Both the position numbers and the translations under genes were made by a program. The notes beneath the pieces are model-generated. The model was not told the origin of the DNA and searched no databases. It saw only the letters and a list, made by a program, of their open reading frames with translations. Below are positions 7,884 through 18,192 of a stretch of 64,000 nt of DNA, piece by piece (positions within the stretch are counted from its first letter, which is position 1; every line of letters starts with the position of its first letter). This stretch comes from Nitrospirota bacterium (GTDB lineage: Bacteria; Nitrospirota; Thermodesulfovibrionia; UBA6902), in contig JACQZF010000038.1 in the NCBI GenBank assembly GCA_016213945.1, forward strand, positions 1 to 64,000. Reading direction: 5' to 3'.

Positions 7884-7968
7884 AGCATGAAAAAAAAGAC
7901 ATATTTGTCATTCTTTTGCTGTGGCTTGCAGATTGCAACTATGGGAACCATCTGCTAATATTATAACT

Positions 7969-8412
7969 ATGAAAATATATTTCGATGTATGCTGTCTTAA
8001 CCGCCCATTCGATGATCAAACGCAGGACAGAATACATCTCGAGGCTGAAGCAATCCTCGCTATTATTAATCACAGTCGGATATCTAATTGGAGCATAGTA
8101 GGTAGCGATGCTATTGATTTTGAAATTGCAAGAATGCCTGATCTTAACAAACGAATCATGGTACAAATACTTTCAACCTTGCATGATGCTCATATTAAAG
8201 TCGATTCAGGTATTGAAAAACGAGCGCTGGAACTCAAAAAAATGGGTCTGAAAGCTATGGACGCCTTGCATATTGCCTGCGCGGAAAAAGCAAAAGCAGA
8301 GGTTTTTCTCACAACAGACGACTATCTTTTTAGCAAGGCCGTGCAAAACAAAAAAATGTTGAAACTAAAGATAGAGAACCCGCTGCGATGGGTAACGGAG
8401 GTATTAAAATGA
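7969..8412 (+). CDS. PIN-domain ribonuclease (toxin-like)
   Basis: The 147-residue protein starts MKIYFDVCCLNRPFDD, with the first catalytic Asp in the FDVCCLNRP strand. MDALHIACAEKA and TTDDYLF supply the later acidic residues of the PIN metal site. PIN proteins of this subgroup are VapC-like RNases, usually paired with a small partner. ATG 7969 fits the family N-terminus better than the upstream in-frame start, which reads through unrelated sequence. The stop overlaps the next gene's start as ATGA (8409-8412), so the pair is translationally coupled. Toxin first, partner second is the reverse of the most common order. Confidence 0.8.
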   Translation: MKIYFDVCCLNRPFDDQTQDRIHLEAEAILAIINHSRISNWSIVGSDAIDFEIARMPDLNKRIMVQILSTLHDAHIKVDSGIEKRALELKKMGLKAMDALHIACAEKAKAEVFLTTDDYLFSKAVQNKKMLKLKIENPLRWVTEVLK

Positions 8413-8609
8413 GCACGCAAACTATGAGCCCGATTGTTATACGCAAAGCCGGATTGGAAGCAGTTGCAAAAAAACTGGGACCGCTTGGGATGGTGCGTTT
8501 CCTGCAGCAATTTGAGACGGGACTTGGAGATTACACCCGGGAGCGGACCCAATGGCTTAAAGATATGGACATTCATGAGATCGTGACGGAAATAAGGAAA
8601 AAACGGTAA
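8409..8609 (+). CDS. small partner of the PIN protein (candidate antitoxin)
   Basis: A 66-residue, charged, soluble protein with a recognisable core (IRKAGLEAVAKKLGPLGMVR, then FLQQFETGLGDYTRER) that I associate with small proteins found next to PIN genes of this type in diverse bacteria. It has no recognisable DNA-binding domain of the AbrB, RHH or Phd kind, so how it would neutralise the PIN protein or regulate the pair is unknown. The ATG at 8409 overlaps the PIN stop by four bases. GGAGGT, starting at 8396, provides the ribosome-binding site. Confidence 0.65.
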   Translation: MSTQTMSPIVIRKAGLEAVAKKLGPLGMVRFLQQFETGLGDYTRERTQWLKDMDIHEIVTEIRKKR

Positions 8610-8703
8610 CCTCTCCCCGAGTCCTTGAATTAGCCTTAATATTTCCATATCTACCGAGCTTTACTCCGTGAATAGAGATTATTTCCCTCCAAGAACAATT
8701 CCC

Positions 8704-11478
8704 ATGATAATAACCTCGGACATTTTCGAAGCCTATCTTAAGTGCCCTTCTAAATGTTGGTTTCGCATTCAGGGTGAAGAAACAGCCGGTAATATATATT
8801 CTCAGTGGGTGGAGAAAAAGAACCGTTTATACCGAGAAGAAGCTCTCAATCGGATTTCGGATAATATTGGCAGTGATAATTTTACCTTTTCTCCGGGCCA
8901 ACCTTTGAATATAAAGATGGCTAAGTGGAGGTTAGCTGCAGATTTTATTGTGCGAAAGGAAAACTTGGAAGCCCATGTTCCTGCTATCGAGCGATTGTCT
9001 TCCGAGGGCAAGCCTGTTCAGCTCATTCCCATTCGATTTACCTTTGCCAATAAACTTACCAGAGGGGATAAGCTGATACTTGCATTTGATTCGCTCGTGT
9101 TGTCTGAGGCATATAGGCATGAAATAGTCTACGGCAAAATAGTTCACGGCGACGACTTTTCCAGGTCAAAGGTTAAGCTACACCCTCTGATGCGAGAGGT
9201 ACGAAAGCTTAATGGCAAAATAGCCACTTTGCTTTCAAACAGCGCACCACCTGATATCGTTCTAAACCGACACTGCCAGGAGTGCGATTATAAAGCCAAG
9301 TGCCGGCAGAAGGCTATTGAAAAAGACGACCTCAGCTTGCTGGCCGGCATGAACGAAAAGGAGCGGACAAAATATAACAGTAAAGGGATATTCACTATTA
9401 AACAACTTTCGTACACATTCAGGCCTCGTCGCCGACCGAAAAGGCAACGGGATAAACGAGAGAAGTATCATCACTCGCTTAAGGCGCTCGCGATTCGTGA
9501 AAAGAAAATTCACATTGTCGGCAGGCCGGAACTGAGGATCGATGGCACACCGGTTTATCTGGATGTCGAAGGTATTCCTGACAGCGATTTATATTATCTA
9601 ATTGGGATACGCATCAAAACTGCTACAGGGATTGTTCAGCACAGTCTGTGGGCTGACGAAAAGGATACCGAGGGAAAAATATGGCGCGACTTTCTCGGAG
9701 CTCTCTCCCAAATCGAGAACCCAGTCTTGATCCACTATGGCAGCTTCGAGTCAACATTTCTAAAACGAATGTGTGACCGGTATGACGAGCCTGCAGCGGA
9801 TTCAGCAATGGCCATCGCCCTTAAATCGACAATCAACCTCCTGTCTTTTGTTTACGCACAGATATATTTTCCCACCTTCTCCAATGGTTTGAAGGAAATT
9901 GCCGGTTTTATGGGATTCACATGGTCTGATGAGAACTGCTTTGGGGTTCAGTCGATAGCATGGCGTCATCTCTGGGAGGAAAGTCGTGACAGCTCTGTGA
10001 AGGAGAAGCTTCTCCGATACAATGCTGAAGACTGTCAGGCACTGGAGAAGCTATCACAGACAATCCGGGAGATTGGCGACGCCGGAACAGTGGAGCCAAC
10101 TGATCAAATTAGCGAGACAAAGTTTATCAGATTAGATTCCGATAGGTTTAACAAAAAGTCTAAGTGGCATAGATTCACTAGTCCTGTTTCAAGCTTAGAA
10201 CTTATCAATTCTGCAGCGCAGTGGAATTATCAGAGAGATCGTGTTTATGTAAGGACTGGAGAAGTAAAGCAAGAGCGCAAAAAGCGACGATCTCGGCGAC
10301 AAAATATTTCACAACCAGAAAAAGTAATCATATGGGATAGTACGCGAACTTGCCCGTGCTGCAATCGTTCTTATTATAGAAAGGGGCCAGATAAATCAAA
10401 AAAGCTGTATGAGATTCTGTTTGGCCATCGCAGTATAAAACTGCGATTAGTGAAATATTTATTCCCAATCCGCCTTTGTCGAAAATGTGGTACAGCCTTT
10501 GGCATGCCGGACAGATATAAGTTTGCAAAGAAATATGGCTGGAATCTTATTGCATATTTCTTCTACCATGTTGTTGACTTATGCATTCCGCAACGCAAGA
10601 TCGTTCGTGGGTTTAACAGACTATTTAATTTTGAATTGAATCGCAGTACACTGCACTATCAAAAAATAAGAACCGCTGAATATTATGCCGATACTAAACA
10701 GCAAATTCTGGAAAGAATAGTTAGCGGCAGTCTTCTCCACATCGATGAAACAAGAGCAAACATTAAGGGGCAGTCTGCTTTTGTATGGGTGCTTACCAGC
10801 CATAAAGAGGTCGTATATATTTTGTCCGAGAGCAGAGAGGGCGAAATTGCACATAAATTGCTTGCTGAGTTCAAAGGGGTCTTGGTATCTGATTTTTACA
10901 CAGCTTACGACTCCATTAACTGTCCGCAGCAAAAATGTCTGATCCACTTAATGAGAGATTTAAACGACGAAATTCTGAACAATCCATTCGATGAACAGTT
11001 GAAGCAAATAGTCACTGACTTTGGTGGTCTATTAAAACCAATGATTGAAACGGTTGATAGATTTGGTCTCAAGAAATATTTTTTGAAGAAGCATATGATT
11101 CACGCCGAACGCTTTTATTGCGCTCTTGAGCGGACAGACTATCAAAGTGAAGCGGCAGTGAAGTGCAAGGAAAGATTTGAGAAAAATCGGGGAAAACTCT
11201 TTACTTTTCTGAAATACGATGGGGTACCATGGAATAATAACAATGCCGAACACGCAATCAAAGCTTTTGCGAGACTTCGGGATGTGATTGCTGGCTCATC
11301 TACTGAAAAAGGTGTTGACGAGTATCTAACCCTCTTGAGCATTTGTCAAACATGTAAATACAGTGGAGTGGACTTCTTGGACTTTTTACGATCCGGCGCA
11401 AAAGATATTCGTGCCTTCGCTGAAAGTAAACGAAGGCGAAGGGGAGATAAAGTCTCACTTCCCATGAACAGCGAGTAA
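8704..11478 (+). CDS. RecB/Cas4-like nuclease - RNase H exonuclease - IS66 transposase fusion
   Basis: One uninterrupted frame encodes three modules in 924 residues. Residues 1 to about 260 resemble TM0106-type RecB-like nucleases: N-terminal MIITSDIFEAYLKCPSKCW, and later CQECDYKAKC (CX2CX5C), giving the Cas4-like Fe-S cysteine arrangement. About 280-470 is a DEDDy RNase H-fold exonuclease: YLDVEG (DxE), HYGSFES and LRYNAEDCQALE (YNxxD). About 520-910 is an IS66-type transposase: zinc-ribbon cysteine pairs (CPCC, CRKC), LLHIDET (first Asp), VSDFYTAY (second Asp), CLIHLMRDL and NNNNAEHAIKAF (Glu). ATG 8704 fits the family N-terminus; a GTG at 8668 is the alternative, and neither has a strong ribosome-binding site. 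No TnpA or TnpB partners are present. By eye it is AT-richer than its surroundings. Confidence 0.8.
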   Translation: MIITSDIFEAYLKCPSKCWFRIQGEETAGNIYSQWVEKKNRLYREEALNRISDNIGSDNFTFSPGQPLNIKMAKWRLAADFIVRKENLEAHVPAIERLSSEGKPVQLIPIRFTFANKLTRGDKLILAFDSLVLSEAYRHEIVYGKIVHGDDFSRSKVKLHPLMREVRKLNGKIATLLSNSAPPDIVLNRHCQECDYKAKCRQKAIEKDDLSLLAGMNEKERTKYNSKGIFTIKQLSYTFRPRRRPKRQRDKREKYHHSLKALAIREKKIHIVGRPELRIDGTPVYLDVEGIPDSDLYYLIGIRIKTATGIVQHSLWADEKDTEGKIWRDFLGALSQIENPVLIHYGSFESTFLKRMCDRYDEPAADSAMAIALKSTINLLSFVYAQIYFPTFSNGLKEIAGFMGFTWSDENCFGVQSIAWRHLWEESRDSSVKEKLLRYNAEDCQALEKLSQTIREIGDAGTVEPTDQISETKFIRLDSDRFNKKSKWHRFTSPVSSLELINSAAQWNYQRDRVYVRTGEVKQERKKRRSRRQNISQPEKVIIWDSTRTCPCCNRSYYRKGPDKSKKLYEILFGHRSIKLRLVKYLFPIRLCRKCGTAFGMPDRYKFAKKYGWNLIAYFFYHVVDLCIPQRKIVRGFNRLFNFELNRSTLHYQKIRTAEYYADTKQQILERIVSGSLLHIDETRANIKGQSAFVWVLTSHKEVVYILSESREGEIAHKLLAEFKGVLVSDFYTAYDSINCPQQKCLIHLMRDLNDEILNNPFDEQLKQIVTDFGGLLKPMIETVDRFGLKKYFLKKHMIHAERFYCALERTDYQSEAAVKCKERFEKNRGKLFTFLKYDGVPWNNNNAEHAIKAFARLRDVIAGSSTEKGVDEYLTLLSICQTCKYSGVDFLDFLRSGAKDIRAFAESKRRRRGDKVSLPMNSE

Positions 11479-11628
11479 GCCAGCATCACATCACTAAGTG
11501 GTTTAATGCGTGAAATCAGTAATGGTATCCACGTAATCTCTGCTAATAACTCAAGGATATTCTTCGGAGCTTGATCCAGTCATGCCTCTGCTTGTTCTAT
11601 AATAACCCGCGAGGTATAATCATCAAAC

Positions 11629-16622: not shown

Positions 16623-17369
16623 ATGAGAAAATTCATGTCAGGCGTAATCTTCGCTATCCTGGCGTTTGTTAACAATGCCGATGCGGTTGACAGTAAAATT
16701 GCCCAGGGCAGGGAACTTTTTATGACCAACTGCTCAGTGTGTCATGGAGAAAAAGGAGACAGCAAGGGACAGGTGTGTTTCAGCAGCAATATCGAAAAGA
16801 GCGGAAAAGTTCTTCACATCATGGCAAGGGACTTTACGGTCGGAGTATTTAAATTCCGCACAACCTCAACAGGGTGTCTGCCAAAAGACAGCGATCTCCT
16901 GCAAACAGTAAGCAATGGTATCCCCAAATCCTTCATGCCATCTTTCGCTGACCTTTCACTGCAGGAAAGAGACGCTTTGGTGGAATATATAAAGTCGTTT
17001 TCATCCAGATGGACAGAAGAGCCTGCCTGCAATGCCATTGCTGTTGTAAAACCCAAATGGGTCGGGACCCCGGAGTCAATCAGGAAGGGGGAAATGATAT
17101 ATAAGAATGTGAAATGCTGGGAGTGTCACGGTGATACAGGCAAAGGCGACGGCAAAAAATCAGAAGACCTTAAAGATGACTGGGGACACAAAATATTACC
17201 CTTTGATTTTACGACCGGCACGTTGAAAAGAGGCACATCTCCTGAAGCAATTTATATCACTTTCTCGACTGGCCTGGATGGGTCGGGTATGCCGTCATAT
17301 GAAGACAGCTTAAAAGAGGAGGACAGATGGCATCTTGTTTCTTATACGTTAAAACTGATGGGAATGTAA
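16623..17369 (+). CDS. dihaem cytochrome c (cbb3-linked)
   Basis: A 248-residue periplasmic protein: signal peptide (about 1-21), first haem domain with CSVCHGEKGD, second with CWECHGDTGKGDG, and a conserved ending DRWHLVSYTLKLMGM. It belongs to a set of related dihaem cytochromes in this window (31603, 32531, 46755; more distantly 17422), each next to a terminal oxidoreductase. Here it is followed by another dihaem cytochrome and the cbb3 oxidase, so it probably delivers electrons to that oxidase. The ribosome-binding site is GGAGGAGG, five bases before ATG. Confidence 0.88.
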   Translation: MRKFMSGVIFAILAFVNNADAVDSKIAQGRELFMTNCSVCHGEKGDSKGQVCFSSNIEKSGKVLHIMARDFTVGVFKFRTTSTGCLPKDSDLLQTVSNGIPKSFMPSFADLSLQERDALVEYIKSFSSRWTEEPACNAIAVVKPKWVGTPESIRKGEMIYKNVKCWECHGDTGKGDGKKSEDLKDDWGHKILPFDFTTGTLKRGTSPEAIYITFSTGLDGSGMPSYEDSLKEEDRWHLVSYTLKLMGM

Positions 17370-17421: not shown

Positions 17422-18192
17422 ATGAGTAAAAAGAGATGCATGGCCAAGCGCTTCCGCTCTCTTGTGATTCCACTGACTGCACTGCTTATCATGCTTGTTA
17501 CCTTTCCGGTTCCCTCGCATTCCCAAACAGATATATCAGCAGGCAAAAAGGTCTATGAGAAATACTGCATTGGCTGCCACGGTGAAAAGGGCGATGGCAA
17601 CGGAGCTGCCTCAACAAATTTGATAGTTAAACCCAGAAACTTTATTTTGGGCGTGTTTAAATTCAAGTCTACGCCGACAGGCTCGCTCCCTACAGATGAG
17701 GATTTGAAGAATGTCATCAGCAGGGGGTTGCCAACTTCGTCTATGCCTAATTTCAAACTTGTGCCTGAAGCCGACAAAGACAAGGTTATCGCCTATATCA
17801 AGGGACTTTCCGGCAGATGGGCGAAGGAATCCCCTAAAGGGGAATTTACTCAGCTTGCTGCCCCGGACTTTGTAGGCACCCCTGACTCTGTAAAAGAAGG
17901 GGAAAGGCTTTATTCAAACAGGTGTAAAATGTGTCATGGGACAAAGGAAGGCAGGCCCGATATATCATTCGCTTTAAAAGGGAACAATGAGGAATGTAAT
18001 GATTTAATAAAACCTGCAAACTTCAATTACGGCCTTATTAAAAGAGGTACGAACGTAGAGGATATCTATTTATCCATCACTGCAGGGGCCGAGGGGACGC
18101 CGATGCTGTCTTTTGCCAACATGTTGAGTGAAAACGACAGATGGCATCTTACGTCTTATATTTTAAATATTATGGGCAAGGGAAGGAGGTAA
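17422..18192 (+). CDS. dihaem cytochrome c, divergent paralogue
   Basis: The 256-residue protein has a signal peptide (about 15-35), haem motifs CIGCHGEKGDGNG and CKMCHGTKEG, and the same overall layout as its upstream neighbour. However, the second haem lacks the CWECHG signature of the other four copies and the ending reads DRWHLTSYILNIMGKG. It starts at ATG 17422 after AAGGAGG and ends four bases before the CcoN start, so it is the closest cytochrome to the oxidase. It may substitute for the missing CcoP subunit as the direct electron donor; this is inference from position. Confidence 0.85.
   Translation: MSKKRCMAKRFRSLVIPLTALLIMLVTFPVPSHSQTDISAGKKVYEKYCIGCHGEKGDGNGAASTNLIVKPRNFILGVFKFKSTPTGSLPTDEDLKNVISRGLPTSSMPNFKLVPEADKDKVIAYIKGLSGRWAKESPKGEFTQLAAPDFVGTPDSVKEGERLYSNRCKMCHGTKEGRPDISFALKGNNEECNDLIKPANFNYGLIKRGTNVEDIYLSITAGAEGTPMLSFANMLSENDRWHLTSYILNIMGKGRR

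Follow-up and report, generated by a model that had tools for sequence, protein, structure and literature searches.

Organization of the insertion and its fusion gene

The window analysed here is a 64,000-nucleotide stretch of DNA from a Nitrospirota bacterium (contig JACQZF010000038.1). Between two divergent genes it carries an insertion of about 3.66 kb, which contains only a PIN-type gene pair and one long fusion gene, with neither another recombinase gene nor a resolvase gene. The features, in window positions, are:

7921..11578, no strand: whole insertion, ~3.66 kb (PIN gene, small ORF and fusion ORF)
7921..7922, no strand: left junction, GT followed by GGCTTGCAGATTGCAACT, defined against the empty site and genome G007
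about 7969..8412, plus strand: PIN-domain VapC-like toxin candidate, 147 aa (Pfam PIN, E=2.3e-6)
8409..8609, plus strand: small ORF, 66 aa, antitoxin candidate; overlaps the PIN stop (ATGA)
8704..11478, plus strand: fusion protein, 924 aa
8725..9549, plus strand: module 1, TM0106/Cas4/Dna2-like Fe-S domain, motif III lost (PIRF at 109–112)
9550..10083, plus strand: module 2, DEDDy (PolB-type) exonuclease; D287, E289, E349 (D/E), Y439, N440, D443
9916..11343, plus strand: exchangeable segment, residues ~405–880, delimited by nucleotide identity to locus L003
10339..11394, plus strand: module 3, zinc ribbon C550, C553, C592, C595 and IS66-type DDE triad D681, D730, E849
11344..11475, plus strand: C-terminal tail, residues 881–924, co-segregating with module 1
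11577..11580, no strand: right junction, ...GAGCTTGATCCA followed by GTCATG; the G007 copy diverges at ~11565–11578

The fusion reading frame (stop-to-stop 949, stop at 11478) contains no frameshift or internal stop. NCBIfam assigns residues 8–448 to TIGR03491 (TM0106 RecB-like; 180.6 bits against a cutoff of 97.45) and residues 524–897 to NF033517 (IS66 transposase; 188.2 bits against a cutoff of 180), and Pfam places RNase_H_2 at 284–453 and DDE_Tnp_IS66 (PF03050, E=2.4e-29) at 612–871. The reading frame and both profile searches thus confirm the original prediction of three modules in one uninterrupted frame. The predicted CX2CX5C cysteines are C191-x2-C194-x5-C200, accompanied by C14. Module 2 was assigned from the Pfam RNase_H_2 match, residue conservation and fold matches to PolB exonuclease. 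In the AlphaFold model (mean pLDDT 85.8, pTM 0.56) the modules are confident and their relative placement is not. Predicted fold matches of the protein are the ISCth4 transposase, Cas4/Dna2 and PolB exonuclease, with the ISCth4 transposase the best PDB match of module 3.

A genome of the same genus (G004, contig C16) provides an empty site, joining window position 7922 straight to 11579. At this one clean site the 8-bp target duplication is absent, the left and right junctions having at most 2 bp (GT) in common. No inverted repeat was found at the insertion ends, and the single-strand fold of the right end is weaker than that of shuffled sequences. In a second same-genus genome, G007 (contig C93), the PIN and fusion unit lies at a different place with the same left end (GTGGCTT), and its fusion gene is broken by frameshifts. 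From the empty site and this second context we infer that the PIN–fusion unit itself is mobile. The PIN gene of the window also occurs in G007 and G006 and is decayed in G077; the 66-aa ORF, which has no family match in NCBIfam, is 96% conserved in G006. In the latter genome, on a contig that begins inside the PIN gene (G006:C139:1-527, locus L153), the PIN and 66-aa pair is 96% identical and no fusion gene follows it. A second empty site, sought through relatives of G069, was rejected because its flank is a repeated tyrosine recombinase and is uninformative. Elsewhere in the window, 16831–17362 and 17639–18176 form a weak direct repeat (56% over 553 bp).

The fused family and its conservation

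Homologues were sought in a set of bacterial and archaeal genomes, one for each species, and 80 of the 150 relatives found were kept. Full-length, single-frame fusions with the same module order occur at about 60 further loci, spread over nine phyla or more, and are 33–62% identical to the query. Their hosts include Acidobacteriota, Verrucomicrobiota, Nitrospirota, Pseudomonadota, Planctomycetota, Bacteroidota, Cyanobacteriota, Myxococcota and Candidatus Hydrogenedentota, and a further member (L069) comes from an archaeal bin. The gene is found on two complete cyanobacterial plasmids and in isolates, with Pedobacter glucosidilyticus, Methylomonas methanica and Acaryochloris marina among its cultured hosts, and an independent assembly of the same genus carries a gene about 91% identical to ours. 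The original prediction had sought three-module homologues in unrelated genomes, which these loci supply, and had reserved chance insertion for a junction unique to this genome; the junction is common to about 60 loci. The ORF is a true three-module fusion, and a chance junction is excluded. Annotated homologues, which that prediction allowed might exist, do so by name only, the plasmid copies being called 'TM0106 family RecB-like putative nuclease' (WP_261892461.1) and 'transposase IS66, putative'; our literature search found no paper on a nuclease–exonuclease–transposase fusion. Scanned viral contigs gave no matches, and no searched genome holds near-identical copies of the fusion. The second copy in the window's own genome (G000:C77, L155) is 42% identical, contains one stop and lacks the N-terminus.

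Across 60 aligned members the Fe-S cysteines C14, C191, C194 and C200 are invariant, as are D287, E289, Y439, N440 and D443 of the exonuclease (position 349 is E or D) and the zinc-ribbon cysteines C550, C553, C592 and C595 with the triad D681, D730 and E849 of the transposase. The exonuclease motifs DxE and YNxxD are kept throughout the fused family. RecB motif III behaves differently: stand-alone TM0106 relatives have an intact GDIK motif, whereas the fused family mostly has P-I-R-F, with no listed D/E at 110 or K at 112. A PD-(D/E)xK nuclease motif is therefore missing from the fusion, columns 110–112 being mostly I-R-F. With motif III gone and the Fe-S cysteines kept, nuclease activity has very probably disappeared from the RecB-like module, while its fold is retained. 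The earlier 'RecB-Cas4-like' label accordingly holds for the fold and the cysteines and fails for the catalytic motif, which at P109 reads P-I-R-F-like. Pairwise dN/dS, where dS is measurable, is about 0.08–0.32 in each module, indicating that purifying selection acts on all modules. The protein tree is discordant with host phyla, requiring 27 changes where 9 would be the minimum.

Neighbouring genes, vehicles and module exchange

Toxin–antitoxin (TA) genes of at least six families adjoin the fusion gene in about one third of loci, compared with about 2% of control windows placed farther away. Translations, inspected by eye and not blind, revealed TA genes or pairs in 29 of 125 windows near the fusion and in 2 of 82 distant ones (odds ratio 12, p=1.5e-5), with related loci not independent of one another. 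One of the two positive distant windows belongs to L054 and lies itself within a fusion-linked array. The types observed include HigBA, PIN/VapC, DUF5615/DUF433, UPF0175/DUF3368, AbiE, MqsA and ParDE/RelE. Among Pfam families, Gp49/HigB, HigA-type HTH, AbiEii, MqsA, DUF5615 and UPF0175 lead in ORFs up to 1.5 kb downstream, and PIN leads upstream; none of these leading families is among those listed for ORFs 2.5–4 kb away. Searches of the neighbour pairs against NCBIfam yielded no names. Related fusions are flanked by different TA pairs. Neither these recurrent neighbours nor the module swapping described below figured in the original prediction.

Several units are bounded by direct repeats of gene ends. 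The L055 unit (fusion and TA only) lies between 153-bp direct repeats of the yifB 3' end, and the C77 copy, with HigA after it, sits at a yifB 3' end of which 28 bp are repeated. Related fusion units in L055 and L063 also adjoin yifB. The L025 and L011 units (fusion and TA) are bounded by direct repeats of the tRNA-Gly 3' end, and the L037 unit (fusion alone) by direct repeats at a tRNA terminator; neither L037 nor L055 contains another recombinase. Immediately within the repeat, L011 and L025 share the attachment-arm-like motif AAAGCACTTACG; L011 also has a tyrosine integrase gene next to it. We therefore do not credit the fusion with the tRNA repeats, and set them aside as proof of fusion-driven integration.

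Other settings differ. L062 contains attC-like repeats at ~110, 790, 1862, 2722, 6908 and 9918 (L062:110-9957) and, since these show the GCCTAAC...GTTAGGC form of attC, appears to lie in a chromosomal integron array; L081 may be an integron cassette too. In two Verrucomicrobia loci (L032:3917-8129 and L043:2465-3249) many palindromic REP-like repeats (GCAGCCGACGTGAGGAGGCT core) surround the fusion ORF, and in L032 they also occur within it, in frame, lengthening the protein. L068:981-6984 and L071:982-6984 share a 6-kb block (93% identity) set between different flanks. It contains the fusion, a DNA-methylase-like gene and a 262-aa gene; its cargo is perhaps a restriction–modification system. 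A tyrosine recombinase gene lies immediately upstream of the fusion at L070:3045-3881; related sequence occurs three times in the relative G126, and the gene is another mobile gene.

Comparison of the window with L003, from a Planctomycetota bin, shows a mosaic. Nucleotide identity is 74–95% over codons 1–400, mostly 35–65% over codons ~405–880, and 84% over codons 881–920. The N-module of the window is sister to that of L003, and its DDE module groups with L005, L006, L010 and L041. Trees of the N- and DDE modules contain 34 pairs of strongly supported conflicting clades. Both window breakpoints recur in L017/L020, and the left one in L012/L052 and L055/L063. These patterns indicate that family members exchange the transposase segment. 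The C-terminal tail tracks the N-module more closely than it does the neighbouring DDE module (partial correlation 0.45 against 0.22; 0.63 against 0.16 in closer pairs). In L054 (1650–5320) three extra copies of the fusion-ORF 3' end, with the same starting codons, separate cassettes of an HNH gene with a small ORF, of two small genes, and of ParDE with an antitoxin. Homologous tail DNA occurs as one extra copy each in L020 and L048, and the right breakpoint, at codons 880–884, coincides with the left edge of the extra tails in L054 and L020. A genome-wide search found solo tail copies only beside the ORF, plus one stray match. The exchange is most simply attributed to homologous recombination between conserved stretches; a specific exchange site is possible.

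A possible trimmer-transposase and related systems

The recurrence across unrelated phyla, the missing IS66 hallmarks and the frequent TA neighbours suggest a small mobile element of a kind not yet described. We give about even chances to the reading in which the fusion, a 'trimmer-transposase', serves as the recombinase of a mobile unit with TA cargo, its exonuclease trimming ends. Such an element would be small, horizontally moving and of the IS66/IS256-like DDE class, typically with one addiction module, here PIN-type. Module 1, its Fe-S cysteines kept and its catalytic motif lost, could serve only as a DNA-binding domain and would bind element DNA. The DDE module, with invariant triad and zinc ribbon, would cut and join the ends, and the DEDDy module would trim 3' ends or flaps, either ahead of joining or once it is done; such trimming could explain why the insertion has no fixed target duplication. 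The earlier proposal of a transposase with its own end-processing nucleases thus survives in its exonuclease half, which the anatomy fits, and not in its RecB-like half. By analogy with Tn3-family elements, the TA pair would prevent loss of a single-copy element. Family members recombine, swapping the DDE segment, as their sequences indicate, and may exchange cargo by the same route.

This reading draws on the conserved fusion with its invariant exonuclease and DDE residues and low dN/dS, on the clean 3.66-kb insertion with the G004 empty site and the second context in G007, and on the host-discordant tree, the TA link, the recurrent swap breakpoints and the fold matches. Against it stand the lack of terminal inverted repeats, a duplication of at most 2 bp, the lack of the near-identical copies seen with active insertion sequences, the fusions inside vehicles moved by other enzymes (the L062 attC array and the L011 and L025 tRNA-Gly islands), and the PIN pair without a fusion in G006. 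It is possible, if doubtful, that the fusion is instead cargo: a defence or genome-maintenance enzyme, built from a domesticated DDE domain and an exonuclease, that tyrosine recombinases move together with addiction modules. Its main support is that the gene rides several vehicles, including the integron array and tRNA islands. The lack of inverted repeats, target duplication and amplification also speaks for it; Phage_integrase genes occur in four near-upstream ORFs and near the plasmid copies, and AbiE, McrBC and DNA-methylase genes are among the neighbours. However, the window unit, L037 and L055 have no other recombinase, the only PADLOC defence models that match the fusion are those of Cas4, and the triad and zinc ribbon are exactly as in transposases.

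The gene-end repeats of the L055, C77 (yifB), L025, L011 (tRNA-Gly) and L037 units, together with the extra ORF ends between the L054 cassettes, invite the idea that the fusion aids cassette integration at gene 3' ends (tRNA, yifB or its own), duplicating the target end and so producing TA arrays. We consider this improbable: the repeats range from 28 to 153 bp and are not fixed in length, the tRNA sites resemble those of tyrosine integrases, the window insertion has no gene-end repeat, and solo tails lie almost only beside the ORF. That an IS66 gene landed in a TM0106 gene by chance, or that the fusion is an assembly artefact, has nothing in its favour beyond the modular look of the protein and a negligible probability, since the modules keep one order and meet at the same junction in about 60 independent loci, isolates and complete plasmids among them, and the gene recurs in the independent same-genus assembly. 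Within the trimmer-transposase reading, a fuller version would make these units a new class of elements that lack terminal inverted repeats, in which a self-contained trimmer-transposase acts, the nuclease-dead Cas4-like domain recognises an end in the gene's own 3' tail, and addiction modules and DDE segments are captured and swapped at a fixed site near codon 882 to give integron-like TA arrays; taken as a whole, we think it rather unlikely.

Should the exonuclease and DDE modules work in concert, the fusion would be a single-chain trim-and-join DNA system outside CRISPR adaptation. With no inverted repeats or fixed target duplication, the DDE enzyme would need a different rule for end recognition. 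The family is also a simple and testable example of convergent linkage between a transposase family and many unrelated TA types, a linkage that bears on why TA modules are so mobile.

Compared with known systems, the fusion has an IS66-type DDE domain with intact triad and zinc ribbon. The defined ends of eight units show no terminal inverted repeats above shuffled expectation, and a general scan across loci found no consistent pair, nor one with 8-bp duplications. Common ends in the insertion-sequence sense, which the original prediction had proposed to look for, were thus not found, either as inverted repeats or, at the one clean insertion, as an 8-bp duplication. TnpA and TnpB, as predicted, are missing both from the insertion ORFs and from the 25 commonest neighbour Pfam families. 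With inverted repeats, the 8-bp duplication, TnpA/TnpB and near-identical copies all unfound, this is not a canonical IS66 element. It resembles the ISBst12 subgroup in having a single IS66-type transposase ORF without TnpA/TnpB (PMC12898284). ISDge4, a single-ORF member of that subgroup, encodes a 449-aa transposase and has imperfect terminal inverted repeats and an 8-bp direct repeat (PMC12898284), whereas the fusion is about 920 aa, adds two nuclease-fold modules, has TA neighbours and lacks the inverted repeats and duplication; the window unit is therefore not a standard member of the ISBst12 group.

With the TIGR03491 family the fusion shares the Fe-S RecB-like and DEDDy domains, scoring above the cutoff. 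Stand-alone TM0106 proteins are about 490 aa and keep GDIK; the fused family has lost GDIK and gained a transposase. The natural Cas1-Cas2/DEDDh fusion known as the CRISPR trimmer-integrase (PMC10284694) likewise joins an exonuclease to an integrase and, as a working analogy only, indicates that trimming and joining can be coupled; it combines Cas1-Cas2 with DEDDh where ours combines DDE with DEDDy, and we do not claim common ancestry. Tn3-family transposons carry diverse TA pairs (ParE, PIN and Gp49 types) beside their transposition genes (PMC7157771), much as the fusion is flanked by diverse TA pairs. Unlike Tn3 elements, most of which have a resolvase and res site, the window unit has an unrelated transposase and no resolvase gene.
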